Source: Hydractinia symbiolongicarpus (taxonomy: Eukaryota; Cnidaria; Hydrozoa; Anthoathecata; Hydractiniidae). From it: DNA of 64,000 nt. Below are positions 1 through 64,000 of the stretch, in pieces. The stretch is from NCBI RefSeq assembly GCF_029227915.1, contig NC_079876.1, positions 17,546,001-17,610,000 on the forward strand, written 5' to 3'. The first letter of the stretch is position 1. Each line of letters starts with the position of its first letter. Under the pieces are notes generated by a model. That model saw nothing but the letters and a program-made list of their open reading frames with translations, did no database searches and had not been told where the DNA came from. Both the position numbers and the translations under genes were made by a program.

Positions 1-63
1 AGATGCCCTTATTTTGATCGCGAAAGTACCTTACCTGTAATAACTCCAACAATACTTCTTTCA

Positions 64-135
64 GCGTCGGTGGTGTAAAGGTTAGCATTTTTGCCTTCCA
101 AGCAATAGATCCGGGTTCGATTCCGGGCCGACGCA
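64..135 (+). tRNA. tRNA-Gly(UCC), two changes
   Basis: Full length. G27 to T in the anticodon stem and C62 to G in the T stem each break one pair. Confidence 0.75.
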
Positions 136-343
136 TTTCGCTACTAAATTACATGTTCTAGTCTATTAAATTCAGTACGTGTCGTTTCTACTTTGAAGGT
201 GATTAGGAGGGCGCTAATTTTGTTTGGGCAGTTAATGTTTTCAAGTTGTGAAGACACAAGGGAAATGCATATAATACGAAGGATGTCCTTACTTTGATCG
301 CGAAAGTACCTTACCTGCAATAACTCCAACAATACTTTTGTCA

Positions 344-415
344 GCGTCGGTGGTGTAAAGGTTAGCATTGTTGTCTTCCAAGCAATAGATCCGGGTTCGG
401 TTCCCGGCCGACGCA
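344..415 (+). tRNA. tRNA-Gly(UCC), near consensus
   Basis: C31 to T (wobble pair kept) and T-loop A to G, making the B box GGTTCGGTTCC. Confidence 0.82.
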
Positions 416-621
416 TTTCGCTGCTAGATTACATGTTCCAGTCTGTTAAATTCAGTACGTGTCGTTTCTACTTTGAAGGTGATTAGCAGGGCAAATATTG
501 TTTGGACAGTTAATGTTTTCAAGTTGTGAAGACACAAAAGAAATGCATGTAATACGAAAGATGCCCTTATTTTGATCGCGAAAGTGCCTTACCTGTAATA
601 ACTCTAACAATTATCCTGTCA

Positions 622-693
622 GCGTCGGTGGTGTAAAGGTTAGCATTGTTGCCTTCCAAGCAATAGATCCGGGTTCGATACCCGGCCGACGCA
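622..693 (+). tRNA. tRNA-Gly(UCC), near consensus
   Basis: One change: B box GGTTCGATACC. Its 5' edge is the left boundary of the 3,882-bp duplication. Confidence 0.88.
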
Positions 694-899
694 TTTGGCT
701 GCTAGACTACATGTTACAGTCTATTAAATTGAGTACGTGCCGTTTCTACTTTGAAGGTAACTAGGAGGGCAAATTTTGTTTGGACAGTTAATGTTTTCAA
801 GTTGTGAAAACTCAAGGGAAGTGCATATAATACGAAAGATGCCCTTATTTTGATCGCGAAAGTGCCTTACCTGTCATAACTCCAACAATTCTGCTATCA

Positions 900-971
900 G
901 CGTCGGTGGTGTAAAGGTTGACATTGTTGCCTTCCAAGCAATAGATCCGGGTTCGATTCCCGGCCGACGCA
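900..971 (+). tRNA. tRNA-Gly(UCC), family D
   Basis: D arm reads GTTGACATT; the D stem still pairs (GTGT with ACAT). Rest is consensus. Confidence 0.82.
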
Positions 972-1176
972 TTTGGATGTTAGATTTCATGTTCTAGTTT
1001 ATTAAATTCAGTTTTTGTGGTTCCTAGTTAAAAGATGATTAGGAGGACAAATTTTTTTTGACACTTATTATTTTCCAGTTGTGAAGACACAAGGGAAATG
1101 CATATAATACGTAAGATGCCCTTATTTTGATCGCGAAAGTACCTTACCTGCCATAACTCCAACAATTCTGCTGTCA

Positions 1177-1248
1177 GCGTCGGTGGTGTAAAGGTTGACA
1201 TTGTTGCCTTCCAAGCAATAGATCCGGGTTCGATTCCAAGCCGACGCA
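1177..1248 (+). pseudogene. tRNA-Gly(UCC)-like, family D
   Basis: D arm GTTGACATT plus T-stem 3' strand CCAAG, two mispairs. Confidence 0.75.
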
Positions 1249-1288
1249 TTTGGCTGTTAGATTTCATGTTCTAGTCTATTAAATTCAG

Positions 1289-1293
1289 TTTTT
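1289..1293 (+). terminator. T5 run ~40 bp downstream of tRNA (example of TCAGTTTTTGTGG flank)
   Basis: In monomers with this flank the first T-run of four or more is TTTTT about 40 bp past the tRNA, followed by a T7-T8 run about 45 bp later. It is a plausible Pol III stop that would leave a ~40-nt trailer containing the CTAGA/TCTAG repeat. Confidence 0.5.
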
Positions 1294-1453
1294 GTGGTTC
1301 CTACTTAAAAGATGATTAGGAGGGCAACTTGTTTTTGCCAGCTAATGTTTTCAAGTTGTGCAGACACAAGGGAAATGCATATAATACGAAAGATGTCCTT
1401 ACTTTGATCGCGAAAGTACCTTACTTGCAATAACTCCAACAATTCTGCTGTCA

Positions 1454-1525
1454 GCGTCGGTGGTGTAAATGTTAGCATTGTGGCTTTCCAAGCAATAGAT
1501 CCGGGTTTGATTCCCGGCCGACGCA
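1454..1525 (+). pseudogene. tRNA-Gly(UCC)-like
   Basis: AAATG in the D loop, GTGGC anticodon stem, loop TTTCCAA, B box GGTTTGATTCC. Confidence 0.72.
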
Positions 1526-1730
1526 TTTGGCTGTTAGATTTCATGTTCTAGTCTATTAAATTCAGTTTTTGTGGTTCCTACTTAAAAGATGATTAGGAGG
1601 ACAAATTTTTTTTGACACTTATTGTTTTCAAGTTGTGAAGACACAAGGGAAATGCATATAATTCTAAAGATGCCCTTATTTTGATCGCCAAAGTACCTTA
1701 CCTGTAATAACTCCAACAATACTTCTGTCA

Positions 1731-1802
1731 GCGTCGGTGGTGTAAAGGTTAGCATTGTTGCCTTCCACGCAATAGATCCGGGTTCGATTCCCGGCCGACG
1801 CA
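1731..1802 (+). tRNA. tRNA-Gly(UCC), one change
   Basis: Anticodon loop CTTCCAC (A38 to C); otherwise consensus. Confidence 0.88.
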
Positions 1803-2010
1803 TTTCGCTACTAAATTACATGTTCTAGTCTATTAAATTCAGTACGTGTCGTTTCTACTTTGAAGGTGATTAGGAGGGCGCTAATTTTGTTTGGGCAGTT
1901 AATGTTTTCAAGTTGTGAAGACACAAGGGAAATGCATATAATACGTAAGATGCCCTTATTTTGATTGCGAAAGTACCTTACCTGTCATAACTCCAACAAT
2001 TCTGCTGTCA

Positions 2011-2082
2011 GTGTCGGTGGTGTTAAGGTTGACATTGTTGCCTTCCAAGCAATAGATCCGGGTTTGATTCCCGGCCGACGCA
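2011..2082 (+). pseudogene. tRNA-Gly(UCC)-like, family D
   Basis: Acceptor GTGTCGG, A box TGGTGTTAAGG, D arm GTTGACATT, B box GGTTTGATTCC. Confidence 0.72.
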
Positions 2083-2286
2083 TTTGGCTGTTAGATTTCA
2101 TGGTCTAGTCTATTAAATTCAGTTTTTGTGGTTCCTACTTAAAAGATGATTGGAGGACAAAATTTTTTTGACACTTATTGTTTTCAAGTTGTGAAGACAC
2201 AAGGGAAATGCATATAATTCTAAAGATGCCCTTATTTTGATCGCGAAAGCACCTTACCTGTAATAACTCCAACAATTCTTCTGTCA

Positions 2287-2358
2287 GAGTCGGTGGTGTA
2301 AAGGTTAGCATTGTTGCCTTCCAAGCAATAGATCCGGGTTCGATTCCCGGCCGATGCA
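2287..2358 (+). pseudogene. tRNA-Gly(UCC)-like, acceptor damaged
   Basis: GAGTCGG against CCGATGC: A2 mispairs, G3 wobbles. Internal boxes intact. Confidence 0.72.
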
Positions 2359-2564
2359 TTTCGCTACTAAATTACATGTTCTAGTCTATTAAATTTAGTA
2401 CGTGTCGTTTCTACCTTGAAGGTGATTAGCAGGGCAAATTTTGTTTGGACAGTTAATGCTTTCAAGTTGTGAAGACACAAGGGAAATGCATATAATACGA
2501 AGGATGCACTTATTTTGATCGCGAAAGTGCCTTACCTGCAATACCTCCAACAATTATGCTGTCA

Positions 2565-2635
2565 GCGTCGGTGGTGTAAAGGTTAGTATTGTTGCCTTCC
2601 GAGCAATAGATCCGGGTTTGATTCCTGGCCGCGCA
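2565..2635 (+). pseudogene. tRNA-Gly(UCC)-like, 71 nt
   Basis: One base lost from the 3' acceptor strand (CCGCGCA); loop CTTCCGA; B box GGTTTGATTCC. Confidence 0.75.
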
Positions 2636-2840
2636 TTTGGCTGTTAGATTTCATGTTCTAGTCTATTAAATTCAGTACGTGTCGTTTCTACTTTGAAGAT
2701 GATTAGGAAGGCAACTTGTTTTTGCCAGAAAATGTATTCAAGTTGTGGAGACACAAGGGAAATGCATATAATACGTAAGATGCCCTTATTTTGATCGCGA
2801 AAGTGCCTTACCTGTCATAACTCCAACAATTCTGCTGTCA

Positions 2841-2912
2841 GCGTCGGTGGTGTAAAGATTAGCATTGTGGCCTTCCAAGCAATACATCCGGGTTCGAATC
2901 CCGGCCGACGCA
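2841..2912 (+). tRNA. tRNA-Gly(UCC), family R
   Basis: AAAGATTAGC, GTGGC stem, variable TACAT, B box GGTTCGAATCC (fits the consensus). Confidence 0.75.
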
Positions 2913-3116
2913 TTTGGCTGTTAGATTTCATGTTCTAGTCTATTAAATTCAGTTTTTGTGGTTCCTACTTAAAAGATGATTAGGAGGACAAATTCTTTTG
3001 ACACTTATTGTTTTCAAGTTGTGAAAACACAAGGGAAGTGCATATAATACGAAAGATGCCCTTATTTTGATCGCGAAAGTACCTTACCCGCAATAACTCC
3101 AACAATTCTGCTGCCA

Positions 3117-3187
3117 CCGGCGGTGGTGTAAAGGTTAGTATTGTTGCCTTCCAAGCAATAGATCCGGTTTCGATTCCGGCCGACGCA
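3117..3187 (+). pseudogene. tRNA-Gly(UCC)-like, mosaic M, 71 nt
   Basis: CCGGCGG acceptor strand and short T stem of family S but consensus CCGACGCA end. Confidence 0.75.
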
Positions 3188-3392
3188 TTTCGCTACTAGA
3201 TTACATGTTCTAGTCTATTAAATTGAATACGTGTCGTTTCTACTTTGAAGATGATTAGGAGAGCAACTTGTTTTTGCCAGAAAATGTATTCAAGTTGTGA
3301 AGACACAAGGGAAATGCATATAATACGTAAGATGCCCTTATTTTGATCGCGAAAGTGCCTTACCTGTCATAACTCCAACAATTCTGCTGTCA

Positions 3393-3464
3393 GCGTCGGT
3401 GGTGTAAAGGTTGACATTGTTGCCTTCCAAGCAATAGATCCGGGTTCGATTCCAAGCCGACGCA
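3393..3464 (+). pseudogene. tRNA-Gly(UCC)-like, family D
   Basis: Same changes as the copy at 1177 (GTTGACATT, CCAAG). Confidence 0.75.
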
Positions 3465-3669
3465 TTTGGCTGTTAGATTTCATGTTCTAGTCTATTAAAT
3501 TCAGTTTTTGTGGTTCCTATTTAAAAGATGATTAGGAGGGCAACTTGTTTTTGCCAGCTAATGTTTTCAAGTTGTGCAGACACAAGGGAAAGGCATATAA
3601 TACGAAAGATGTCCTTACTTTGATCGCGAAAGTAACTTACTTGCAATAACTCCAACAATTCTGCTGTCA

Positions 3670-3741
3670 GCGTCGGTGGTGTAAATGTTAGCATTGTGGC
3701 TTTCCAAGTAATAGATCCGGGTTTGATTTCCGGCCGACGCA
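3670..3741 (+). pseudogene. tRNA-Gly(UCC)-like
   Basis: AAATG, GTGGC stem, loop TTTCCAA, AAGTA, and B box GGTTTGATTTC. Confidence 0.72.
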
Positions 3742-3946
3742 TTTGGCTGTTAGATTTCATGTTCTAGTCTATTAAATTCAGTTTTTGTGGTTCCTATTTA
3801 AAAGATGATTAGGAGGACAAATTTTTTTTGACACTTATTGTTTTCAAGTTGTGAAGACACAAGGGAAATGCATATAATTCTAAAGATGCCCTTATTTTGA
3901 ACGCCAAAATACCTTACCTGTAATAACTCCAACAATACTTCTGTCA

Positions 3947-4018
3947 GCGTCAATGGTGTAAAGATTAGCATTGTTGCCTTCCAAGCAATAGATCCAGGTT
4001 CGATTCCCGGCCGACGCA
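3947..4018 (+). pseudogene. tRNA-Gly(UCC)-like, acceptor damaged
   Basis: GCGTCAA acceptor strand breaks two pairs; AAAGATTAGC; T stem CCAGG. Confidence 0.72.
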
Positions 4019-4226
4019 TTTCGCTACTAATTTACATGTTCTAGTCTATTAAATTCAGTACGTGTCGTTTCTACTTTGAAGGTGATTAGGAGGGCGCTAA
4101 TTTTGTTTGGGCAGTTAATGTTTTCAAGTTGTGAAGACAGAAGGGAAATGCATATAATACGTAAGATGCCCTTATTTTAATTGCGAAAGTACCTTACCTG
4201 TCATAACTCCAACAATTCTGCTGTCA

Positions 4227-4298
4227 GCGTCGGTGGTGTTAAGGTTGACATTGTTGCCTTCCAAGCAATAGATCCGGGTTTGATTCCCGGCCGACGCA
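4227..4298 (+). pseudogene. tRNA-Gly(UCC)-like, family D
   Basis: A box TGGTGTTAAGG, GTTGACATT and B box GGTTTGATTCC; acceptor intact. Confidence 0.7.
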
Positions 4299-4503
4299 TT
4301 TGGCTGTTAGATTTCATGTTCTAGTCTATTAAATTCAGTTTTTGTGGTTCCTACTTAAAAGATGATTAGGAGGGCCAATTTTTTTTGACACTTATAGTTT
4401 TCAAGTTGTGAAGACACAAGGCAAATGCATATAATTCTAAAGATGCCCTTATTTTGATCGCGAAAGTACCTTAACTGTAATAACTCCAACAATTCTTTTG
4501 TCA

Positions 4504-4575
4504 GCGTCGGTGGTGTAAAGGTTAGCATTGTTGCCTTCCAAGCAATAGATCCGGGTTCGATACCCGGCCGACGCA
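4504..4575 (+). tRNA. tRNA-Gly(UCC), near consensus
   Basis: Second copy of the tRNA at 622 (+3,882 bp), B box GGTTCGATACC. Confidence 0.88.
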
Positions 4576-4781
4576 TTTGGCTGCTAGACTACATGTTACA
4601 GTCTATTAAATTGAGTACGTGCCGTTTCTACTTTGAAGGTAACTAGGAGGGCAAATTTTGTTTGGACAGTTAATGTTTTCAAGTTGTGAAAACTCAAGGG
4701 AAGTGCATATAATACGAAAGATGCCCTTATTTTGATCGCGAAAGTGCCTTACCTGTCATAACTCCAACAATTCTGCTATCA

Positions 4782-4853
4782 GCGTCGGTGGTGTAAAGGT
4801 TGACATTGTTGCCTTCCAAGCAATAGATCCGGGTTCGATTCCCGGCCGACGCA
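4782..4853 (+). tRNA. tRNA-Gly(UCC), family D
   Basis: Duplicate of 900. Confidence 0.82.
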
Positions 4854-5058
4854 TTTGGATGTTAGATTTCATGTTCTAGTTTATTAAATTCAGTTTTTGT
4901 GGTTCCTAGTTAAAAGATGATTAGGAGGACAAATTTTTTTTGACACTTATTATTTTCCAGTTGTGAAGACACAAGGGAAATGCATATAATACGTAAGATG
5001 CCCTTATTTTGATCGCGAAAGTACCTTACCTGCCATAACTCCAACAATTCTGCTGTCA

Positions 5059-5130
5059 GCGTCGGTGGTGTAAAGGTTGACATTGTTGCCTTCCAAGCAA
5101 TAGATCCGGGTTCGATTCCAAGCCGACGCA
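5059..5130 (+). pseudogene. tRNA-Gly(UCC)-like, family D
   Basis: Duplicate of 1177. Confidence 0.75.
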
Positions 5131-5335
5131 TTTGGCTGTTAGATTTCATGTTCTAGTCTATTAAATTCAGTTTTTGTGGTTCCTACTTAAAAGATGATTA
5201 GGAGGGCAACTTGTTTTTGCCAGCTAATGTTTTCAAGTTGTGCAGACACAAGGGAAATGCATATAATACGAAAGATGTCCTTACTTTGATCGCGAAAGTA
5301 CCTTACTTGCAATAACTCCAACAATTCTGCTGTCA

Positions 5336-5407
5336 GCGTCGGTGGTGTAAATGTTAGCATTGTGGCTTTCCAAGCAATAGATCCGGGTTTGATTCCCGGC
5401 CGACGCA
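5336..5407 (+). pseudogene. tRNA-Gly(UCC)-like
   Basis: Duplicate of 1454. Confidence 0.72.
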
Positions 5408-5612
5408 TTTGGCTGTTAGATTTCATGTTCTAGTCTATTAAATTCAGTTTTTGTGGTTCCTACTTAAAAGATGATTAGGAGGACAAATTTTTTTTGACAC
5501 TTATTGTTTTCAAGTTGTGAAGACACAAGGGAAATGCATATAATTCTAAAGATGCCCTTATTTTGATCGCCAAAGTACCTTACCTGTAATAACTCCAACA
5601 ATACTTCTGTCA

Positions 5613-5684
5613 GCGTCGGTGGTGTAAAGGTTAGCATTGTTGCCTTCCACGCAATAGATCCGGGTTCGATTCCCGGCCGACGCA
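5613..5684 (+). tRNA. tRNA-Gly(UCC), one change
   Basis: Duplicate of 1731 (A38 to C). Confidence 0.88.
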
Positions 5685-5892
5685 TTTCGCTACTAAATTA
5701 CATGTTCTAGTCTATTAAATTCAGTACGTGTCGTTTCTACTTTGAAGGTGATTAGGAGGGCGCTAATTTTGTTTGGGCAGTTAATGTTTTCAAGTTGTGA
5801 AGACACAAGGGAAATGCATATAATGCGTAAGATGCCCTTATTTTGATTGCGAAAGTACCTTACCTGTCATAACTCCAACAATTCTGCTGTCA

Positions 5893-5964
5893 GTGTCGGT
5901 GGTGTTAAGGTTGACATTGTTGCCTTCCAAGCAATAGATCCGGGTTTGATTCCCGGCCGACGCA
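5893..5964 (+). pseudogene. tRNA-Gly(UCC)-like, family D
   Basis: Duplicate of 2011; its upstream flank has TAATGCG, one of the few differences between the two 3,882-bp copies. Confidence 0.72.
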
Positions 5965-6168
5965 TTTGGCTGTTAGATTTCATGGTCTAGTCTATTAAAT
6001 TCAGTTTTTGTGGTTCCTACTTAAAAGATGATTGGAGGACAAAATTTTTTTGACACTTATTGTTTTCAAGTTGTGAAGACACAAGGGAAATGCATATAAT
6101 TCTAAAGATGCCCTTATTTTGATCGCGAAAGCACCTTACCTGTAATAACTCCAACAATTCTTCTGTCA

Positions 6169-6240
6169 GAGTCGGTGGTGTAAAGGTTAGCATTGTTGCC
6201 TTCCAAGCAATAGATCCGGGTTCGATTCCCGGCCGATGCA
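6169..6240 (+). pseudogene. tRNA-Gly(UCC)-like, acceptor damaged
   Basis: Duplicate of 2287. Confidence 0.72.
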
Positions 6241-6446
6241 TTTCGCTACTAAATTACATGTTCTAGTCTATTAAATTTAGTACGTGTCGTTTCTACCTTG
6301 AAGGTGATTAGCAGGGCAAATTTTGTTTGGACAGTTAATGCTTTCAAGTTGTGAAGACACAAGGGAAATGCATATAATACGAAGGATGCACTTATTTTGA
6401 TCGCGAAAGTGCCTTACCTGCAATACCTCCAACAATTATGCTGTCA

Positions 6447-6517
6447 GCGTCGGTGGTGTAAAGGTTAGTATTGTTGCCTTCCGAGCAATAGATCCGGGTT
6501 TGATTCCTGGCCGCGCA
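6447..6517 (+). pseudogene. tRNA-Gly(UCC)-like, 71 nt
   Basis: Duplicate of 2565. Confidence 0.75.
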
Positions 6518-6722
6518 TTTGGCTGTTAGATTTCATGTTCTAGTCTATTAAATTCAGTACGTGTCGTTTCTACTTTGAAGATGATTAGGAAGGCAACTTG
6601 TTTTTGCCAGAAAATGTATTCAAGTTGTGGAGACACAAGGGAAATGCATATAATACGTAAGATGCCCTTATTTTGATCGCGAAAGTGCCTTACCTGTCAT
6701 AACTCCAACAATTCTGCTGTCA

Positions 6723-6794
6723 GCGTCGGTGGTGTAAAGATTAGCATTGTGGCCTTCCAAGCAATACATCCGGGTTCGAATCCCGGCCGACGCA
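6723..6794 (+). tRNA. tRNA-Gly(UCC), family R
   Basis: Duplicate of 2841. Confidence 0.75.
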
Positions 6795-6998
6795 TTTGGC
6801 TGTTAGATTTCATGTTCTAGTCTATTAAATTCAGTTTTTGTGGTTCCTACTTAAAAGATGATTAGGAGGACAAATTCTTTTGACACTTATTGTTTTCAAG
6901 TTGTGAAAACACAAGGGAAGTGCATATAATACGAAAGATGCCCTTATTTTGATCGCGAAAGTACTTTACCCGCAATAACTCCAACAATTCTGCTGCCA

Positions 6999-7069
6999 CC
7001 GGCGGTGGTGTAAAGGTTAGTATTGTTGCCTTCCAAGCAATAGATCCGGTTTCGATTCCGGCCGACGCA
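6999..7069 (+). pseudogene. tRNA-Gly(UCC)-like, mosaic M, 71 nt
   Basis: Duplicate of 3117. Confidence 0.75.
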
Positions 7070-7274
7070 TTTCGCTACTAGATTACATGTTCTAGTCTAT
7101 TAAATTGAATACGTGTCGTTTCTACTTTGAAGATGATTAGGAGAGCAACTTGTTTTTGCCAGAAAATGTATTCAAGTTGTGAAGACACAAGGGAAATGCA
7201 TATAATACGTAAGATGCCCTTATTTTGATCGCGAAAGTGCCTTACCTGTCATAACTCCAACAATTCTGCTGTCA

Positions 7275-7346
7275 GCGTCGGTGGTGTAAAGGTTGACATT
7301 GTTGCCTTCCAAGCAATAGATCCGGGTTCGATTCCAAGCCGACGCA
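7275..7346 (+). pseudogene. tRNA-Gly(UCC)-like, family D
   Basis: Duplicate of 3393. Confidence 0.75.
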
Positions 7347-7551
7347 TTTGGCTGTTAGATTTCATGTTCTAGTCTATTAAATTCAGTTTTTGTGGTTCCT
7401 ATTTAAAAGATGATTAGGAGGGCAACTTGTTTTTGCCAGCTAATGTTTTCAAGTTGTGCAGACACAAGGGAAAGGCATATAATACGAAAGATGTCCTTAC
7501 TTTGATCGCGAAAGTAACTTACTTGCAATAACTCCAACAATTCTGCTGTCA

Positions 7552-7623
7552 GCGTCGGTGGTGTAAATGTTAGCATTGTGGCTTTCCAAGTAATAGATCC
7601 GGGTTTGATTTCCGGCCGACGCA
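7552..7623 (+). pseudogene. tRNA-Gly(UCC)-like
   Basis: Duplicate of 3670. Confidence 0.72.
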
Positions 7624-7828
7624 TTTGGCTGTTAGATTTCATGTTCTAGTCTATTAAATTCAGTTTTTGTGGTTCCTATTTAAAAGATGATTAGGAGGAC
7701 AAATTTTTTTTGACACTTATTGTTTTCAAGTTGTGAAGACACAAGGGAAATGCATATAATTCTAAAGATGCCCTTATTTTGAACGCCAAAATACCTTACC
7801 TGTAATAACTCCAACAATACTTCTGTCA

Positions 7829-7900
7829 GCGTCAATGGTGTAAAGATTAGCATTGTTGCCTTCCAAGCAATAGATCCAGGTTCGATTCCCGGCCGACGCA
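7829..7900 (+). pseudogene. tRNA-Gly(UCC)-like, acceptor damaged
   Basis: Duplicate of 3947. Confidence 0.72.
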
Positions 7901-8108
7901 TTTCGCTACTAATTTACATGTTCTAGTCTATTAAATTCAGTACGTGTCGTTTCTACTTTGAAGGTGATTAGGAGGGCGCTAATTTTGTTTGGGCAGTTAA
8001 TGTTTTCAAGTTGTGAAGACAGAAGGGAAATGCATATAATACGTAAGATGCCCTTATTTTAATTGCGAAAGTACCTTACCTGTCATAACTCCAACAATTC
8101 TGCTGTCA

Positions 8109-8180
8109 GCGTCGGTGGTGTTAAGGTTGACATTGTTGCCTTCCAAGCAATAGATCCGGGTTTGATTCCCGGCCGACGCA
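8109..8180 (+). pseudogene. tRNA-Gly(UCC)-like, family D
   Basis: Duplicate of 4227. Confidence 0.7.
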
Positions 8181-8385
8181 TTTGGCTGTTAGATTTCATG
8201 TTCTAGTCTATTAAATTCAGTTTTTGTGGTTCCTACTTAAAAGATGATTAGGAGGGCCAATTTTTTTTGACACTTATAGTTTTCAAGTTGTGAAGACACA
8301 AGGCAAATGCATATAATTCTAAAGATGCCCTTATTTTGATCGCGAAAGTACCTTAACTGTAATAACTCCAACAATTCTTTTGTCA

Positions 8386-10049: not shown

Positions 10050-10121
10050 GCGTCGGTGGTGTAAAGGTTAGCATTGTTGCCTTCCAAGCAATAGATCCGG
10101 GTTCGATTCCCGGCCGACGCA
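10050..10121 (+). tRNA. trnG-UCC: tRNA-Gly(UCC), exact consensus
   Basis: All 72 positions match the array consensus; every cloverleaf stem pairs and both Pol III boxes are intact. Decodes glycine GGA codons (GGG by wobble). The sequence after the tRNA is ATTCGC, so no T-run is adjacent. Confidence 0.96.
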
Positions 10122-10327
10122 ATTCGCTGCTAGATTACATGTTCTAGTCTATTAAATTCAGTACGTGTCGTTTCTACTTTGAAGGTGATTAGCAGGGCAA
10201 ATATTGTTTGGACAGTTGATGTTTTCAAGTTGTGAAGACACAAGGGAAATGCATATAATACGAAAGATGTCCTTACTTTGATCGCGAAAGTACCTTACCT
10301 GCAATAACTCCAACAATTCTGCTGTCA

Positions 10328-15944: not shown

Positions 15945-16150
15945 TTTGGCTGCTAGACTACATTTTCTAGTCTATTAAATTCAGTACGTGTCGTTTCTAC
16001 TTTGAAGGTGATTAGGAGGACAAATTTTGTTTGAACAGTTAGTGTTTTCAAGCTGTGAAAACACAAGGGAAATGCATATAATACGAAAGATGTCCTTACT
16101 TTGATCGCGAAAGTGCCTTACCTGCAATACCTCTAACAATTCTGCTGTCA

Positions 16151-16222
16151 GCGTCGGTGGTGTAAAGATTAGCATTGTGGTCTTCCAAGCAATACATCCG
16201 GGTTCGAATCCCGGCCGACGCA
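16151..16222 (+). tRNA. tRNA-Gly(UCC), family R
   Basis: GTGGT stem, TACAT, B box GGTTCGAATCC. Confidence 0.72.
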
Positions 16223-16427
16223 TTTGGCTGTTAGATTTCATGTTCTAGTCTATTAAATTCAGTTTTTGTGGTTCTTATTTAAAAGATGATTAGGAGGACA
16301 AATTTTTTTTGACACTTATTGTTTTCAAGTTGTGAAGACACAAGGGAAATGCATATAATTCTAAAGATGCCCTTATTTTGATCGCGAAAGTACCTTACCT
16401 GTAATAACTCCAACAATTCTTCTGTCA

Positions 16428-16499
16428 GCGTCGGTGGTGTAAAGGTTAGCATTGTTGCCTTCCAAGCAATAGATCCGGGTTCGATTCCAGGCCGACGCA
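16428..16499 (+). tRNA. tRNA-Gly(UCC), one change
   Basis: C62 to A in the T stem. Confidence 0.85.
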
Positions 16500-16704
16500 T
16501 TTCGCTACTAGATTACATGTTCTAGTCTATTAAATTCAGTACGTGTCGTTTCTACTTTGAAGATGATTAGGAGGGCAACTTGTTTTTGCCAGGAAATGTT
16601 TTCAAGTTGTGAAGACACAAGGGAAATGCATATAATACGAAAGATGTCCTTACTTTGATCGCGAAAGTACCTTACCTGCAATAACTCCAACAATTCTTCT
16701 GTCA

Positions 16705-16776
16705 GCGTCGGTGGTGTAAAGGTTAGCATTGTTGCCTTCCAAGCAATAGATCCGGGTTTGATTCCCGGCCGACGCA
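16705..16776 (+). tRNA. tRNA-Gly(UCC), one change, T4 terminator
   Basis: B box GGTTTGATTCC; TTTT follows directly. Confidence 0.83.
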
Positions 16777-16780
16777 TTTT
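16777..16780 (+). terminator. T4 directly after tRNA
   Basis: Same GCATTTTGCTGC configuration after the tRNA at 16705. Confidence 0.6.
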
Positions 16781-16982
16781 GCTGCTAGATTACATGTTCT
16801 AGTCTATTAATTTCAGTACGTGTCGTTTCTACTTTGAAGGTGATTAGCAGGGCAAATATTGTTTGGACAGTTAATGTTTTCAAGTTGTGAAGACACAAGG
16901 GAAATGCATATAATGCGAAGGATGCCCTTATTTTGATCGCGAAATTGCCTTACCTGCAATACCTCCAACAATTCTGCTGTCA

Positions 16983-17054
16983 GCGTCGGTGGTGTAAAAG
17001 TTATTATTTTTGTCTTCCAAGCAATAGATCCTGGTTCACCTCCCAGGTGACGCA
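16983..17054 (+). pseudogene. tRNA-Gly(UCC)-like, family P
   Basis: T arm CCTGGTTCACCTCCCAGG. Confidence 0.75.
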
Positions 17055-17259
17055 TATGGCTGCTAGATATGATGTTCTAGTCTATTAAATTCTGTACGTG
17101 TGGGTTCTCCCTTGAAGATGATTAGGAGGGCAACTTGTTTTTGCCAGCTAATGTTTTCAAGTTGTGCAGACACAAGGGAAATGCATATAATACGAAAGAT
17201 GTCCTTACTTTGATCGCGAAAATACCTTACCTGCAATAACTCCAACAATTCTGCTGTCA

Positions 17260-17331
17260 GCGTCGGTGGTGTAAATGTTAGCATTGTTGCCTTCCAAGCA
17301 ATAGATCCCGATTCGATTCCCGGCGGACGCA
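17260..17331 (+). pseudogene. tRNA-Gly(UCC)-like, family Q
   Basis: AAATG; CCCGATTCGATTCCCGG; CGGACGCA. Confidence 0.74.
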
Positions 17332-17536
17332 TTTGGCCGCTTGATTAGATGTTCTAGTCTATTAAATTCCGTACGTGTTGTTTTTGCTTTGAAGGTGATT
17401 AGGAGGGCAAATTTTTTTGGACAGTTAATGTTTTCAAGTTGTGAAGACACAAAAAAAATGCATGTGATACGAAAGATGCCCTTATTTTGATCGCGAAAGT
17501 ACCTTACCTGTAATAACTCCAACAGTTATCCTGTCA

Positions 17537-17608
17537 GCGTCGGTGGTGTAAAGGTTAGCATTGTTGCCTTCCAAGTAATAGATCCGGGTTTGATTCCCGG
17601 CCGACGCA
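17537..17608 (+). tRNA. tRNA-Gly(UCC), two changes
   Basis: AAGTA in the anticodon stem; B box GGTTTGATTCC. Confidence 0.77.
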
Positions 17609-17814
17609 TTTGGCTGCTATGCTACATGTTCTAGTCTATTAAATTCAGTACGTGTCGTTTCTACTTTAAAGGTGATTAGGAGGGCAAATTTTGTTTGGAC
17701 AGTTAATGTTTTCAAGTTGTGAAAACACAAGGGAAATGCATATAATACGAAAGATGTCCTTACTTTGATCGCGAAAGTGCCTTACCTGCAATACTTCCAA
17801 CAATTCTGCTGTCA

Positions 17815-17886
17815 GCGTCGGTGGTGTAAAAGTTATTATTTTTGTCTTCCAAGCAATAGATCCTGGTTCACTTCCCAGTTGACGCA
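17815..17886 (+). pseudogene. tRNA-Gly(UCC)-like, family P
   Basis: GGTTCACTTCC, end TTGACGCA. Confidence 0.75.
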
Positions 17887-18091
17887 TTTGGCTGCTAGAT
17901 ATGATGTTCTAGTCTATTAAATTCTGTACGTGTGGGTTCTCCTTTGAAGATGATTAGGAGGGCAACTTGTTTTTGCCAGGAAATGTTTTCAAGTGGTTAA
18001 GACACAAGGGAAATGCATATAATACGAAAGATGTCCTTACTTTGATCGCGAAAGTACCTTACCTGCAATAACTCCACCAATTCTTCTGTCA

Positions 18092-18163
18092 GCGTCGGTG
18101 GTGTAAAGGTTAGCATTGTTGCCTTCCAAGCAATAGATCCAGGTTCGATTCCCGGCCGACGCA
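18092..18163 (+). tRNA. tRNA-Gly(UCC), one change
   Basis: T-stem 5' strand CCAGG (G50 to A). Confidence 0.84.
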
Positions 18164-18367
18164 TTTGGCTGCTAGTCTACATGTCCTAGTCTATTAAATT
18201 CAGTACGTGTCGTTTCTACTTTGAAGATGATTAGGAGGGCAACTTATTTTTGCCAGCTAATGTTTTCAAGTTGAGCAGACACAAGGGAAATGTATATAAT
18301 ACGAAAGATGTCCTTACTTGATCGCGAAAATACCTTACCTGCAATAACTCCAACAATTCTGCTCCCA

Positions 18368-18439
18368 GCGTCGGTGGTGTAAAGGTTAGCATTGTTGCCT
18401 TCCAAGCAATAGATCCCGATTCGATTCCCGGCCGACGCA
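18368..18439 (+). pseudogene. tRNA-Gly(UCC)-like, Q T arm with consensus acceptor
   Basis: CCCGATTCGATTCCCGG has two T-stem mispairs, but the end is CCGACGCA. Confidence 0.72.
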
Positions 18440-18644
18440 TTTCGCTACTAGATTACATGTTCTAGTCTATTAAATTCAGTACGTGTCGTTTCTACTTTGA
18501 AGATGATTAGGAGGGCAACTTGTTTTTGCCAGGAAATGTTTTCAAGTGGTGAAGACACAAGGGAAATGCATATAATACGAAAGATGTCCTTACTTTGATC
18601 GCTAAAGTACCTTACCTGCAATAACTCCACCAATTCTTCTGTCA

Positions 18645-18716
18645 GCGTCGGTGGTGTAAAGGTTAGCATTGTTGCCTTCCAAGCAATAGATCCGGGTTTG
18701 ATTCCCGGCCGACGCA
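18645..18716 (+). tRNA. tRNA-Gly(UCC), one change, T4 terminator
   Basis: B box GGTTTGATTCC; TTTT follows directly. Confidence 0.83.
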
Positions 18717-18720
18717 TTTT
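18717..18720 (+). terminator. T4 directly after tRNA
   Basis: GCATTTTGCTGC after the tRNA at 18645. Confidence 0.6.
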
Positions 18721-18922
18721 GCTGCTAGATTACATGTTCTAGTCTATTAAATTCAGTACGTGTCGTTTCTACTTTGAAGGTGATTAGCAGGGAAAATATT
18801 GTTTGGACAGTTAATGTTTTCAAGTTGTGAAGACACAAGGGAAATGCATATAATACGAAGGATGCCCTTATTTTAATCGCGAAAGTGCCTTACCTGCAAT
18901 ATCTCCAACAATTCTTCTGTCA

Positions 18923-18994
18923 GCGTCGGTGTTGTAAAAGTTATTCCTTTTGTCTTCCAAACAATAGATCCTGGTGCACTTCCCAGTTGACGCA
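18923..18994 (+). pseudogene. tRNA-Gly(UCC)-like, family P, decayed
   Basis: TGTTGTAAAAG A box, GTTATTCCTTTTGTC, T arm CCTGGTGCACTTCC. Confidence 0.74.
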
Positions 18995-19199
18995 TTTGGC
19001 TGCTAGATATGATGTTCTAGTCTATTAAATTATGTACGTGTGGGTTCTCCTTTGAAGATGATTAGGAGGGCTACTTGTTTTTGCCAACTAATGTTTTCAA
19101 GTTGTGCAGACACAAGGGAAATGCATATAATACGAAAGATGTCCTTACTTTGATCGCGAAAATACCTTACCTGCAATAACTCCAACAATTCTGCTGTTA

Positions 19200-19271
19200 G
19201 CGTCGGTGGTGTAAAGGTTAGCATTGTTGCCTTCCAAGTAATAGATCCCGATTCGATTCCCGGCCGACGCA
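19200..19271 (+). pseudogene. tRNA-Gly(UCC)-like, Q T arm
   Basis: AAGTA and CCCGATTCGATTCCCGG with a consensus acceptor end. Confidence 0.71.
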
Positions 19272-19477
19272 TTTGGCTGCTAGACTACATGTTCTAGTCT
19301 ATTAAATTCAGTACGTGTCGTTTCTACTTTGAAGGTGATTAGGAAGGCAAATTTTGTTTGGACAGTTTATGTTTTCAAGTTGTGAAAACACAAGGGAAAT
19401 GCATAAAATACGAAAGATGTCCTTACTTTGATCGCGAAAGTACCTTACCTGAAATAACTCCAACAATTCTGCTGTCA

Positions 19478-19549
19478 GCGTCGGTGGTTTAAAGATTAGC
19501 ATTGTGGCCTTCCAAGCATTAGATCCGGGTTCGATTCCCGGCCAACGCA
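19478..19549 (+). tRNA. tRNA-Gly(UCC), family R variant
   Basis: TGGTTTAAAGA, GCATT, end CCAACGCA. Confidence 0.68.
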
Positions 19550-19754
19550 TTTGGCTGTTAGATTTCATGTTCTAGTCTATTAAATTCAGTTTTTGTGGTT
19601 CCTACTTAAAAGATGATTAGGAGGACAATTTTTTTTTGACACTTATTGTTTTCAAGTTGTGAAGAGACAAGGGAAATGCATATAATTCTAAAGATCCCCT
19701 TATTTTGATCGCGAAAGTACCTTACCTGTAATAACTCCAACAATACTTCTGTCA

Positions 19755-19826
19755 GCGTCGGTGGTGTAAAGGTTAGCATTGTTGCCTTCCAAGCAATAGA
19801 TCCGGGTTCGATTCCCGGCCGACGCA
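19755..19826 (+). tRNA. trnG-UCC: tRNA-Gly(UCC), exact consensus
   Basis: Matches the consensus throughout. Confidence 0.96.
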
Positions 19827-20032
19827 TTTGGCTGCTAGACTACATGTTCTAGTCTATTAAAATCAGTACGTGTCGTTTCTACTTTGCAGGTGATTAGGAG
19901 GGCAAATTTTGTTTGGACAGTTAATGTTTTAAAGTTGTGAAAACACAAGGGAAGTGCATATAATACGAAAGATGCCCTTATTTTGATCGCGAAAGTACCT
20001 TACCTGCAATAACTCCAACAATTCTGCTGCCA

Positions 20033-20103
20033 CCAGCGGTGGTGTAAAGGTTAGTATTGTTGCCTTCCAAGAAATAGATCCGGTTTCGATTCTGGCGGAC
20101 CCA
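20033..20103 (+). pseudogene. tRNA-Gly(UCC)-like, family S
   Basis: CCAGCGG acceptor strand, AAGAAAT, T arm CCGGTTTCGATTCTGG, end CGGACCCA. Confidence 0.75.
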
Positions 20104-20308
20104 TTTGGCTACTTGTTTTGATGTTCTAGTCTATTAAATTGTGTACGTGTGGGTTCTCCTTTGAAGATGATTAGGAGGGCAACTTGTTTTTGCCAGAAAA
20201 TATTTCCAAGTTGTGAAGACACAAGGGAAATGCATATAATACGAAAGATGTCCTTACTTTGATCGCGAAAGTACCTTACCTGCAATAACTCCAACAATTC
20301 TGCTGTCA

Positions 20309-20380
20309 GCGTTGGTGGTGTAAAGATTAGCATTGTGGCCTTCCAAGCAGTAGATCCGGATTCGATTCCCGGCTGAAGCA
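20309..20380 (+). pseudogene. tRNA-Gly(UCC)-like, family T
   Basis: GCGTTGG against CTGAAGC leaves G3 facing A69; B box GATTCGATTCC. Confidence 0.73.
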
Positions 20381-20487
20381 TTTGGCTGTTAGAATTCATG
20401 TTTTAGTCTATTAAATTCAGTTTTTGTGGTTCCTACTTAAAAGATGATTAGGAGGACAAATTTTTTTTGACACTTATTGTTTTCAAG

Positions 20488-20501
20488 TTGTGAAGACACA
20501 A
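20488..20501 (+). promoter_or_regulatory. TTGTG/CACAA inverted repeat upstream of tRNA (reference monomer)
   Basis: TTGTG, AAGA, CACAA: a perfect 5-bp inverted repeat with a 4-nt spacer, about 98 bp before the tRNA at 20586. It recurs in most monomers. Spacers AAGA, CAGA, AAAA, AATA, ATGA and GAGA occur while the arms usually stay intact. No function is known; it could be a protein site or chance. Confidence 0.5.
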
Positions 20502-20509
20502 GGGAAATG

Positions 20510-20517
20510 CATATAAT
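20510..20517 (+). promoter_or_regulatory. TATA-like element CATATAAT (reference monomer)
   Basis: AAATGCATATAAT lies about 75 bp upstream of the tRNA start in nearly every monomer, followed by ACGAAAG or TCTAAAG. It is further upstream than a TATA box used by Pol III (about -30), so a promoter role is only a guess. Conservation may simply reflect array homogenisation. Confidence 0.35.
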
Positions 20518-20592
20518 TCTAAAGATGCCCTTATTTTGATCGCGAAAGTACCTTACCTGTAATAACTCCAACAATACTTCTGTCAGCGTCGG

Positions 20593-20603
20593 TGGTGTAA
20601 AGG
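20593..20603 (+). promoter_or_regulatory. Pol III A box of a consensus tRNA copy
   Basis: TGGTGTAAAGG at linear tRNA positions 8-18 fits the A box consensus (TRGYNNARNNG). Shown for the exact-consensus copy at 20586; the same offset holds for every full-length copy. Families P and R alter its last bases (AAAAG, AAAGA). Confidence 0.9.
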
Positions 20604-20635
20604 TTAGCATTGTTGCCTTCCAAGCAATAGATCCG

Positions 20636-20646
20636 GGTTCGATTCC
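20636..20646 (+). promoter_or_regulatory. Pol III B box of a consensus tRNA copy
   Basis: GGTTCGATTCC at linear positions 51-61 matches the TFIIIC-bound B box (GGTTCGANTCC). Frequent array variants are GGTTTGATTCC (loss of the invariant T-loop C), GGTTCGAATCC (still fits) and GGTTCACTTCC (family P, does not fit). Confidence 0.93.
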
Positions 20647-20665
20647 CGGCCGACGCATATCGCTA

Positions 20666-20683
20666 CTAGATTACATGTTCTAG
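20666..20683 (+). other. CTAGA/TCTAG inverted repeat just downstream of tRNA (reference monomer)
   Basis: CTAGA, eight bases, TCTAG begins about 8 bp after the tRNA end and would form a small hairpin in the 3' trailer. Many monomers carry TTAGA on the left arm, which still pairs through a U·G wobble. Family S trailers (CTTGTTTTGATG) lose the left arm. Confidence 0.45.
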
Positions 20684-20863
20684 TCTATTAAATTCAGTAC
20701 GTGTCGTTTCTACTTTGAAGATGATTAGGAAGGCAAATTTTGTTTGGACAGTTAATGTTTTCAAGTTATGAAAACACAAGGGAAGTGCATATAATACGAA
20801 AGATGCCCTTATTTTGATCGCGAAAGTACCTTACCTGCAATAACTCCAACAATTCTGCTGCCA

Positions 20864-20934
20864 CCGGCGGTGGTGTAAAGGTTAGTATTGTTGCCTTCAA
20901 AGAAATAGATCCGGTTTCGATTCCGGCCGACCCA
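20864..20934 (+). pseudogene. tRNA-like, family S, anticodon TCA
   Basis: Loop CTTCAAA at 20895-20901 reads TCA (Ser). Acceptor region is the CCACCGGCGGTGG palindrome. Confidence 0.75.
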
Positions 20935-21139
20935 TTTGGCTGCTTGTTTTGATGTTCTAGTCTATTAAATTGTGTACGTGTGGGTTCTCCTTTGAAGATG
21001 ATTAGGAGGGCAACTTGTTTTTGCCAGAAAATATTTCCAAGTTGTGAAGACACAAGGTAAATGCATATAATACGAAAGATGTCCTTACTTTGATCGCGAA
21101 AGTACCTTACCTGCAATAACTCCAACAATTCTGCTGTCA

Positions 21140-21211
21140 GCTTCGGTGGTGTAAAGATTAGCATTGTGGCCTTCCAAGCAGTAGATCCGGGTTCGATTCC
21201 CGGCTGAAGCA
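21140..21211 (+). tRNA. tRNA-Gly(UCC), family T with restored acceptor
   Basis: GCTTCGG pairs fully with CTGAAGC: G3 to T compensates A69. T stem and B box are consensus. Confidence 0.75.
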
Positions 21212-21416
21212 TTTGGCTGTTAGATTTCATGTTCTAGTCTATTAAATTCAGTTTTTGTGGTTCCTACTTAAAACATGAATAGGAGGACCAATTTTTTTTT
21301 ACACTTATTGTTTTCAATCTGTGAAGACACAAGGAAAATGCATATAATTCTAAAAATGCCCTTATTTTGATGGCGAAAGTACCTTACCTGTAATAACTCC
21401 AACAATACTTCTGTCA

Positions 21417-21488
21417 GCGTCAGTGTTGTAAAGGTTAGCATTGTTGCCTTCCAAGCAATAGATCCGGGTTCGATTCCCGGCCGACGCA
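21417..21488 (+). tRNA. tRNA-Gly(UCC), two changes
   Basis: GCGTCAG acceptor and TGTTGTAAAGG A box. Confidence 0.76.
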
Positions 21489-21694
21489 TATCGCTACTAG
21501 ATTACATGTTCTAGTCTATTAAATTCAGTACGTGTCGTTTCTACTTTGAAGATGATTAGGAAGGCAAATTTTGTTTGGACAGTTAATGTTTTCAAGTTGT
21601 GAAAACACAAGGGAAGTGCATATAATACGAAAGATGCCCTTATTTTGATCGCGAAAGTACCTTACCTGCAATAACTCCAACAATTCTGCTGCCA

Positions 21695-21765
21695 CCGGCG
21701 GTGGTGTAAAGGTTAGTATTGTTGCCTTCCAAGAAATAGATCCGGTTTTGATTCCGGCCGACCCA
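21695..21765 (+). pseudogene. tRNA-Gly(UCC)-like, family S
   Basis: T arm CCGGTTTTGATTCCGG. Confidence 0.75.
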
Positions 21766-55423: not shown

Positions 55424-55628
55424 TTTGGCTGCTAGATATGATGTTCTAGTCTATTAAATTCTGTACGTGTGGGTTCTCCTTTGAAGATGATTAGGAGGGC
55501 AACTTGTTTTTGCCAGGAAATGTTTTCAAGTTGTGAAGACACAAGGGAAATGCATATAATACGAAGGATGCCCTTATTTTGATCGCGAAAGTGCCTTACC
55601 TGCAATACCTCCAACAATTCTGCTGTCA

Positions 55629-55667
55629 GCGTCGGTGGTGTAAAAGTTATTATTTTTGTCTTCCAAG
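55629..55667 (+). pseudogene. tRNA-Gly(UCC) 5' half only, family P
   Basis: Stops after CTTCCAAG, joined to GAGACACGAAAGATGCCC. Next tRNA starts only 112 bp after this one. Confidence 0.85.
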
Positions 55668-55740
55668 GAGACACGAAAGATGCCCTTATTTTGATCGCGA
55701 AAGTACCTTACCTGTAATAACTCCAACAATTATCCTGTCA

Positions 55741-55812
55741 GCGTCGGTGGTGTAAAGGTTAGCATTGTTGCCTTCCAAGCAATAGATCCGGATTCGATTC
55801 CCGGCCAACGCA
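55741..55812 (+). tRNA. tRNA-Gly(UCC), two changes
   Basis: Copy of 54519. Confidence 0.77.
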
Positions 55813-56367: not shown

Positions 56368-56371
56368 TTTT
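56368..56371 (+). terminator. T4 directly after tRNA
   Basis: Copy of the 55146 site in the 1,222-bp duplication. Confidence 0.6.
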
Positions 56372-61635: not shown

Positions 61636-61840
61636 TTTGGCTGCTTGTTTTAATGTTCTAGTCTATTAAATTGTGTACGTGTGGGTTCTCCTTTGAAGAT
61701 GATTAGGAGGGCAACTTGTTTTTGCCAGAAAATATTTTCAAGTTGTGAAGACACAAGGGAAATGCATATAATACGAAAGATGTCCTTACTTTGATCGCAA
61801 AAGTACCTTACCTGCAATAACTCCAACAATTCTTCTGTCA

Positions 61841-61912
61841 GCGTCGGTGGTGTAAAGGTTAGCATTGTTGCTTTCCAAGCAATAGATCCGGGTTCGATTC
61901 CCGGCCGACGCA
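61841..61912 (+). tRNA. tRNA-Gly(UCC), one change
   Basis: Repeat of 61009. Confidence 0.87.
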
Positions 61913-62118
61913 TTTCGCTGCTAGATTACATGTTCTAGTCTATAAATTTCAGTACGTGTCCTTTCTACTTTGAAGGTGATTAGCAGGGCAAATATTGTTT
62001 GGACAGTTAATGTTTTCAAGTTGTGAAGACACAAGGGAAATGCATATAATACGAAGGATGCCCTTATTTTGATCACGAAAGTGCCTTACCTGCAATACCT
62101 CCAACAATTCTTCTTTCA

Positions 62119-62190
62119 GCGTCGGTGGTGTAAATGTTAGCATTGTTGCCTTCCAAGCAATAGATCCGGGTTCGATTCCCGGCCGACGCA
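62119..62190 (+). tRNA. tRNA-Gly(UCC), one change
   Basis: AAATG (G17 to T). Confidence 0.87.
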
Positions 62191-62396
62191 TTTCGCTGCT
62201 AGAGAACATGTTCTAGTCTATTAAATTCAGTACGTGTCGTTTCTACTTTGAAGGTGATTAGCAGGGCAAATATTGTTTGGACAGTTAATGTTTTCAAGTT
62301 GTGAAGACACAAGGGAAATGCATATAATACATAGGATGTCCTTACTTTGATCGCGAAAGTACCTTACCTGCTATAACTCCAACAATTCTGCTGTCA

Positions 62397-62468
62397 GCGT
62401 CGGTGGTGTAAAGATTAGCATTGTGGCCTTCCAAGCAATAGATCCGGGTTCGATTCCCGGCCGACGCA
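62397..62468 (+). tRNA. tRNA-Gly(UCC), family R, two changes
   Basis: AAAGATTAGC and GTGGC; rest consensus. Confidence 0.8.
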
Positions 62469-62673
62469 TTTGGCTGTTAGATTTCTTGTTCTAGTCTATT
62501 AAATTCAGTTTTTGTGGTTCCTACTTAAAAGATGATTAGGAGGACAAATTTTTTTTGACACTTATTGTTTTCAAGTTGTGCAGACACAAGGGAAATGCAT
62601 ATAATTCTAAAGATGCCCCCATTTTGATCGCGAAAGTACCTTACCTGTAATAACTCCAACAATACTTCTGTCA

Positions 62674-62745
62674 GCGTCGGTGGTGTAAAGGTTAGCATTG
62701 TTGCCTTCCAAGCCATAGATCCGGGTTCGATTCCCGGCCGACGCT
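62674..62745 (+). tRNA. tRNA-Gly(UCC), discriminator lost
   Basis: GCCAT anticodon strand; discriminator A to T gives CGCTTTTCG, a T4 starting at the discriminator position. Confidence 0.75.
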
Positions 62746-62950
62746 TTTCGCTACTAGATTACATGTTCTAGTCTATTAAATTCTGTACGTGTGGGTTCTC
62801 CTTTGAAGATGATTAGGAGTGCAACTTGTTTTTGCCAGAAAATATTTTCAAGTTGTGAAGACACAAGGGAAATGCATATAATACGAAAGATGTCCTTACT
62901 TTGATCGCGAAAGTACCTTACCTGCAATAACTCCAACAATTCTGCTGTCA

Positions 62951-63022
62951 GCGTCGGTGGTGTAAAGATTAGCATTGTGGCCTTCCAAGCAATAGATCTG
63001 GGTTCGATTCCCGGCCGACGCA
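62951..63022 (+). tRNA. tRNA-Gly(UCC), family R, three changes
   Basis: As 62397 with T stem CTGGG. Confidence 0.76.
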
Positions 63023-63227
63023 TTTGGCTGTTAGATTTCATGTTCTAGTCTGTTAAATTCAGTTTTTGTGGTTCCTACTTAAAAGATGATTAGGAGGACA
63101 AATTTTTTTTGACACTTATTGTTTTCCAGTTGTGAAGACACAAGGGAAATGCATATAATTCTAAAGATGCCCTTATTTTGATCGCAAAAGTACCTTACCT
63201 GTAATAACTCCAACAATACTTCTGTCA

Positions 63228-63299
63228 GCGTCGGTGGTGTAAAGGTTAGCATTGTTGGCTTCCAAGCAATAGATCCGGGTTCGTTTCCCGGCAGACGCA
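63228..63299 (+). tRNA. tRNA-Gly(UCC), three changes
   Basis: GTTGG stem, B box GGTTCGTTTCC, end CAGACGCA. Confidence 0.7.
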
Positions 63300-63504
63300 T
63301 TTCGCTACTAGATTACATGTTCTAGTCTATTAAATTCAGTACGTGTCGTTTCTACTTTGAAGATGATTAGGAGGGCAACTTGTTTTTGCCAGGAAATGTT
63401 TTTAAGTTGTGAAGACACAAGGGAAATGCATATAATACGAAAGATGTCCTTACTTTGATCGCGAAAGTACTTTACCTGTAATAACTCCAACAATTATCCT
63501 GTCA

Positions 63505-63576
63505 GAGTCGGTGGTGTAAAGGTTAGCATTGTTGCCTTCCAAGCAATAGAACCGGGTTCGATTCCCGGCCGACGCA
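63505..63576 (+). tRNA. tRNA-Gly(UCC), two changes
   Basis: GAGTCGG acceptor (A2-G70 mismatch); TAGAA variable region. Confidence 0.78.
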
Positions 63577-63782
63577 TTTGGCTGCTAGACTACATGTTCT
63601 AGTCTATTAAATTCAGTACGTGTCGTTTCTACTTTGAAGGTGATTAGGAGGGCAAATTTTGTTAGGACAGTTAATGTTTTCAAGTTGTGAAAACACAAGG
63701 GAAGTGCATATAATACGAAAGATGCCCTTATTTTGATCGCGAAGGTACCTTACCTGCAATAACTTCAACAATTCTGCTGCCA

Positions 63783-63853
63783 CCGGCGGTGGTGTAAAGG
63801 TTAGTATTGTTGCCTTCCAAGCAATAGATCCGGTTTCTATTCCGGCCGACCCA
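63783..63853 (+). pseudogene. tRNA-Gly(UCC)-like, family S
   Basis: T arm CCGGTTTCTATTCCGG. The next monomer is cut by the window end before its tRNA. Confidence 0.75.
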
Positions 63854-64000
63854 TTTGGCTGCTTGTTTTGATGTTCTAGTCTATTAAATTTTGTACGTGT
63901 GGGTTCTCTTTGAAGATGATTAGGAGGGCAACTTGTTTTTGCCAGAAAATATTTTCAAGTTGTGAAGACACATGGGAAATGCATATAATACGAAAGATGT

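Follow-up and report, generated by a model that had tools for sequence, protein, structure and literature searches.

Introduction

Tandem repeats that carry tRNA sequences are known from several eukaryotes. In the hydrozoan Hydractinia symbiolongicarpus, the tRNAs of all 20 amino acids have been described in tandem arrays (PMC11067881). In amphibians, the Cynops PolIII/TAN, Xenopus OAX, Rana/polIII and Hydromantes Hy/polIII families resemble the locus described here in being tandem repeats with a tRNA-like segment, and for three of these four the units are about 360, 250 and 200 nt long (PMC10702118). The same source describes satellites derived from short interspersed nuclear elements (SINEs) in reptiles. 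Here we analyzed a 64,000-bp stretch of the H. symbiolongicarpus genome (C2:17,546,001-17,610,000, where C2 is contig NC_079876.1; the window hereafter) in an assembly of 480.9 Mb and 76 contigs. The window is occupied by a tandem array of tRNA-Gly(UCC)-like units. We consider it probable that this array is mainly tRNA-derived satellite DNA at one C2 locus, the window being an internal piece of it. An earlier sequence-only reading had regarded the array as exceptional, which is not supported, since tandem tRNA arrays had already been published for this species. The array is real, very large and of that published kind, and the arrays of PMC11067881 probably include it. Among the papers found in the open literature searched, none describes this array as a satellite.

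The assembly paper for HSymV2.0 (PMC10411563) describes 482.9 Mb in 84 sequences and 15 chromosomes, obtained from 66x HiFi reads (N50 13.2 kb) and Hi-C. In its accessible text, satellites make up 0.03% and small RNA 1.79% of the assembly, and the word 'tRNA' is mentioned only with regard to mitochondrial DNA.

Extent and location of the array

The array covers window positions 1..64000 on the plus strand, with head-to-tail units of about 277 bp that consist of a 72-bp tRNA-Gly(UCC)-like core and a spacer of about 205 bp (TRF, nhmmer, ARAGORN and Rfam). We found 232 cores in the window by nhmmer, which matches the minimum of 232 copies claimed from the sequence alone. Tandem Repeats Finder (TRF) detects the 277-bp period across the whole window in adjoining rows, and a single TRF row of 920.6 copies extends over C2:17,440,001-17,695,994. 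The left edge of the array is at C2:17,438,296 and its right limit is just past 17,840,400, a span of about 400 kb with more than 1,000 units of about 277 bp. Both window ends are inside this larger array, as the sequence-only reading had proposed. The locus occupies 17.44-17.84 Mb of the 39.96 Mb of C2, and probes outside the array returned AT-rich non-array DNA.

The description of the array as uninterrupted holds within the window apart from a few units of odd length, namely a 241-bp TRF row at 49.6-50.1 kb and a 112-bp row at 55.6-55.8 kb. The latter is a two-copy repeat of a truncated unit on the plus strand (55561..55779). Outside the window the array is interrupted. A non-LTR retrotransposon (long interspersed nuclear element, LINE) with an 843-aa open frame is inserted in the array at about C2:17,480,445-17,483,209, and its 3' junction is inside a tRNA core. 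The LINE frame matches best, at 93% over 73% of its length, a protein named as one of Hydractinia symbiolongicarpus. Array orientation flips from about C2:17,739,771 and is plus again from 17,795,001. On the right side, where 17,696,001-17,730,000 and most of 17,752,001-17,845,000 were sampled by short probes only, array sequence appears intermittently among forty such probes as far as 17,840,400. Five probes between array-positive ones (17,760,001, 17,770,001, 17,778,001, 17,815,001 and 17,830,001) contained no array sequence, and neither did those at 17,845,001, 17,850,001 and 17,900,001.

We then searched the whole genome with short patterns from the unit. A pattern from the upstream spacer has 1,108 forward and 151 reverse matches (1,259 in total), and a second spacer pattern from the other side of the core has 1,097 and 140 (1,237 in total). 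In both cases all of the places listed, about 100 of each total, are on C2, unlike those of the tRNA core pattern, for which the matches listed include other contigs. The fully read parts of the locus account for 894 of the 1,108 forward and 43 of the 151 reverse matches of the upstream pattern; the remaining matches of this pattern would, judged by length, fit into the parts of the locus seen only by probes. From the matches listed, a single genomic locus is thus likely, if not proven. The idea of a satellite common to all centromeres is without support, as the spacer matches listed are all on one contig.

These patterns also bear on the possibility that the array began as a tRNA-derived SINE and turned tandem, like the SINE-derived satellites known in squamates. 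The unit does have a tRNA head and an unrelated body, and such cases have been published for reptiles and a limpet (PMC10702118, PMC11121367). A SINE is expected to have dispersed copies that share its body, whereas the spacer patterns from the two sides of the core are found only on C2 among the roughly 100 places listed of 1,259 and of 1,237. Moreover, the core consensus is identical at 71 of 72 positions to the usual dispersed tRNA-Gly(UCC) gene. We therefore regard a SINE origin as very unlikely. Comparison of the spacer with the LINE, the sampled non-array probes and the dispersed tRNA-Gly(UCC) loci gave matches at chance level only.

Unit structure and higher-order repeats

From 917 cores in C2:17,440,001-17,696,000, we aligned 904 units of 260-300 bp, to which the unit counts below refer. 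Their consensus has 278 columns, 72 of tRNA and 206 of spacer. In different parts of the window, 24-mers are shared strongly at lags of 3, 4, 11 and 14 units, which agree with the fixed spacings between recurring top-scoring cores. A 14-unit higher-order repeat of about 3.88 kb occurs in two successive copies on the plus strand at about 622..8385, a stretch where most Rfam scores repeat 3,882 bp downstream. A 3-unit periodicity of about 0.83 kb, seen in both the 24-mer lags and the Rfam scores, extends on the plus strand over about 16001..24000, with five top-scoring cores at 19755, 20586, 22247, 23077 and 23907. The k-mer lags were more informative than a self-match search at 98% identity, which yielded one pair only. 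In its structure, the locus thus resembles satellite DNA: similar units follow one another head to tail over a long distance, and higher-order repeats are superimposed on them.

Alternatively, a small cluster might have been inflated by the assembly. HiFi reads with an N50 of 13.2 kb are far shorter than the array, and the C2 scaffold carries foreign mitochondrial DNA near its start, so that its joins are imperfect. However, units that differ by 12% on average, higher-order repeats specific to sections, an inversion and a LINE insertion can be resolved by long accurate reads, and no N was found in the 256-kb and 20-kb stretches checked. Furthermore, PMC11067881, in the part available, argues that such arrays are real because similar ones are present both in Nematostella and in an independently produced draft of H. 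echinata. An assembly artefact is accordingly extremely improbable.

The foreign DNA just mentioned consists of two COX1 copies near the start of C2, at 9924-11264 and 25766-27106, which are 15,842 bp apart. The translated copy is 100% identical to the UniRef entry COX1_ARTSF, a mnemonic that we take to denote Artemia franciscana; the next match, Artemia persimilis, is 98% identical. Brine shrimp are a common food. The pair probably represents brine-shrimp mitochondrial DNA that is present in two tandem copies and was joined to a Hydractinia scaffold.

tRNA cores, terminators and dispersed genes

The cores have the fold and identity of tRNA. A covariance-model scan, named beforehand as the refutation test for the tRNA assignment, returned true tRNA scores: Rfam RF00005 has 97 and 103 matches at the gathering score in the two halves of the window, or 200 in all (the scan was split at 32,000, where a core across the cut could be missed). 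ARAGORN predicts 178 tRNAs in the window, all on the plus strand, with 176 Gly(tcc), one Val(tac) and one Arg(tcg). The latter two are cores with a changed anticodon, TAC (called tRNA-Val; 34420..34491, 47.9 bits) and TCG (called tRNA-Arg; 37192..37263, 46.2 bits), both on the plus strand. The top Rfam score of 66.6 bits is reached by 14 matches (nine in the first half and five in the second), and an exact 70-nt core pattern has 15 matches in the window, with none expected from shuffles. One of these exact-consensus cores is at 10050..10121 on the plus strand, followed by its spacer at 10122..10326, the end of which is set by the 277-bp period. The claims that the monomer holds a near-perfect tRNA-Gly(UCC), that at least 14 cores match the consensus exactly and that the copies range from intact to decayed in a satellite-like array are all confirmed. 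Across the aligned units, all 21 stem pairs are intact in 236 of 904, and the anticodon is TCC in 836 and different in 68, including 44 with TTC. We observed that 37 of these 44 TTC units, called tRNA-Glu type, sit at C2:17.44-17.48 Mb, and the change has therefore probably been spread by local amplification.

Terminators and upstream elements give a different picture. Most units lack an RNA polymerase III (Pol III) terminator just downstream of the tRNA: the first run of at least four T residues (T4+) is at a median of 80 nt past the core, within 25 nt in 119 units and not so in 785 of the 904, and the array consensus has a T8 run about 80 nt 3' of the core. A TATA motif at -45..-10 is present in eight of 904 units. 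At least 23 dispersed tRNA-Gly(UCC) copies are found among the matches listed, on C1, C2, C3, C11 and C13, and we examined 17 of these 23 together with their flanks. A T4+ run is present at +3 to +19 in each of the 17, and TATA at -45..-10 in 12. Their cores are nearly invariant, with a mean divergence of 0.5% versus 10.5% between random array units. Core position 66 is T in all 23 listed copies; of the 904 array units, 667 have C there and 152 have T. The dispersed loci match the array consensus only to within a few bases of the gene and are unrelated to the array outside it; in 124 of 136 pairs of dispersed genes, identity is less than 62% in both flanks (shuffled flanks, 50%). Judged by these sequence features, the dispersed copies are probable working tRNA-Gly(UCC) genes.

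Two further observations concern the arrangement of tRNA-Gly(UCC) genes. Three groups of four genes with near-equal spacing are found on C2 at 5.94, 10.74 and 11.46 Mb, and these are apparently copies of one multi-kilobase segment. Two genes on C1, at 13.962 and 17.631 Mb, are 3.7 Mb apart and have identical 60-bp flanks on both sides.

The array might instead be a working dosage array, in which hundreds of tandem tRNA-Gly(UCC) genes provide much glycine tRNA in the manner of 5S ribosomal DNA. Covariance scores of up to 66.6 bits and the 200 Rfam matches for 232 window cores point in this direction, as does the habit of this species of keeping many non-coding RNAs (ncRNAs) in tandem arrays (PMC11067881); a sample of its 5S array is also similarly loose between units. 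Against it stand the distant T runs, the different base at position 66 in most array units and the lack of excess conservation of core, stems and anticodon described below. We consider such a dosage function unlikely, and the locus resembles a satellite in decay more than it does a functional gene cluster.

Core and spacer change between sister units

To compare recent changes in core and spacer, we drew 321 disjoint sister pairs of near-identical units from the alignment, setting aside units with an identical nearest partner. The ratio of non-CpG substitutions in the core to those in the rest of the unit is 0.974 (bootstrap 95% confidence interval 0.818-1.145), and the core ranks 132nd of 278 circular windows. 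Stems, loops, boxes and anticodon change at 0.0132-0.0165 per site versus 0.0146 in the spacer, with no clear difference. When CpG sites are counted as well, the core is the slightly faster-changing part (ratio 1.12, p = 0.044). Pairing is kept in 84 of 266 stem changes (0.316), versus 0.295 expected for random single changes, and no double compensatory stem change was found between sisters. These equal rates in near-identical units, the lack of a near terminator in most units and the presence of dispersed copies elsewhere are the reasons for preferring the satellite reading. The sequence-only reading had seen the line between gene family and satellite as blurred; that mixture is present in the array, and the same three lines of evidence tip the balance to the satellite side.

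Several observations weigh against this conclusion. Over all aligned units the core shows slightly less divergence than the spacer, both in mean identity to the consensus (0.9405 versus 0.9244) and in per-site difference between random pairs (0.105 versus 0.120). Exact-consensus cores number 82 of 904, and both internal promoter boxes are kept in 405 of 904 units under our own definition of the box motifs. Pol III might stop at the T run about 80 nt downstream, the trailer then being trimmed. In addition, a control on four units of the 569-bp 5S ribosomal RNA (rRNA) array on C11 showed variation at 9 of 119 gene sites and at 40 of 450 spacer sites (p = 0.72, divergence ratio 0.83), hence no significant core constraint, although only four units were compared. 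In any large array, redundancy may mask selection, and adjacent units without constraint on the core may be usual in the arrays of this species, functional or not. Because the 5S units likewise lack significant core constraint, the substitution test is weak alone, and the terminator and dispersed-gene evidence outweigh it.

With regard to the 5S rRNA array itself, its pattern has 29 matches at C11:14.07-16.03 Mb. In the 2.4 kb of the array that contain the four genes differing at 9 of 119 sites, one unit has an interrupted downstream T run.

Proposed origin and possible function of the array

The unit has been multiplied over about 400 kb, a span that also contains an inverted block, higher-order repeats, units cut short and one or more transposon insertions. 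The proposed tRNA-derived satellite probably arose when a copy of a tRNA-Gly gene was duplicated together with adjacent DNA. The duplicate would then have expanded and been partly homogenised by unequal crossing-over and gene conversion. The tRNA cores would be passengers, most of which would yield no normally terminated tRNA, and the tRNA-Gly(UCC) of the cell would be supplied by the dispersed genes. A minority of cores that are intact may still be bound by TFIIIC or transcribed.

It is also conceivable, but quite unlikely, that the remaining function of a tRNA gene turning into a satellite is chromosomal. The hundreds of internal promoter boxes that survive would recruit TFIIIC, so that the array forms a boundary or a place of clustering on chromosome 2; long Pol III transcripts might also read through as far as the T run about 80 nt downstream.

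Arrays of this kind can greatly inflate the number of 'tRNA genes' that covariance scans report, as this window alone contributes 200 matches above the Rfam cut-off. On the satellite reading, the locus is a clear case of a real gene sequence becoming a satellite, and relatives that probably still work are available elsewhere in the genome for comparison. It lets one address directly the number of expressed copies in an ncRNA array of Hydractinia.

Comparison with known systems

The human 1q23.3 locus (PMC4041453) is likewise a tandem tRNA-bearing repeat of variable copy number, but it has 7.3-kb units, 9-43 per allele, and is bound by CTCF. Nematostella, also a cnidarian, has more than 17,000 tRNA genes and pseudogenes, of which 89% lie in clusters (PMC2888827); the likeness lies in this clustering. 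The tRNA gene arrays of Entamoeba (PMC2652664) are similar in that they consist of tandem tRNA units, including an array, [R-TCT], named for a single isoacceptor. Nearly all tRNA genes of the Entamoeba cell are in arrays, however, whereas Hydractinia has dispersed genes too. With respect to the amphibian repeats, Rana/polIII has a tRNA likeness of 64% over 64 nt and the tRNA origin of the Hydromantes repeat has been called questionable (PMC10702118), in contrast to the 71 of 72 positions shared here with the dispersed gene. There is also a close likeness to the ncRNA arrays of Hydractinia (PMC11067881): the present array belongs to the same species and shows their evenly spaced, similar tandem tRNA copies and similar spacers. 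In its accessible text, that work gives no per-array analysis; the array described here has more than 1,000 units with spacers of about 205 bp.

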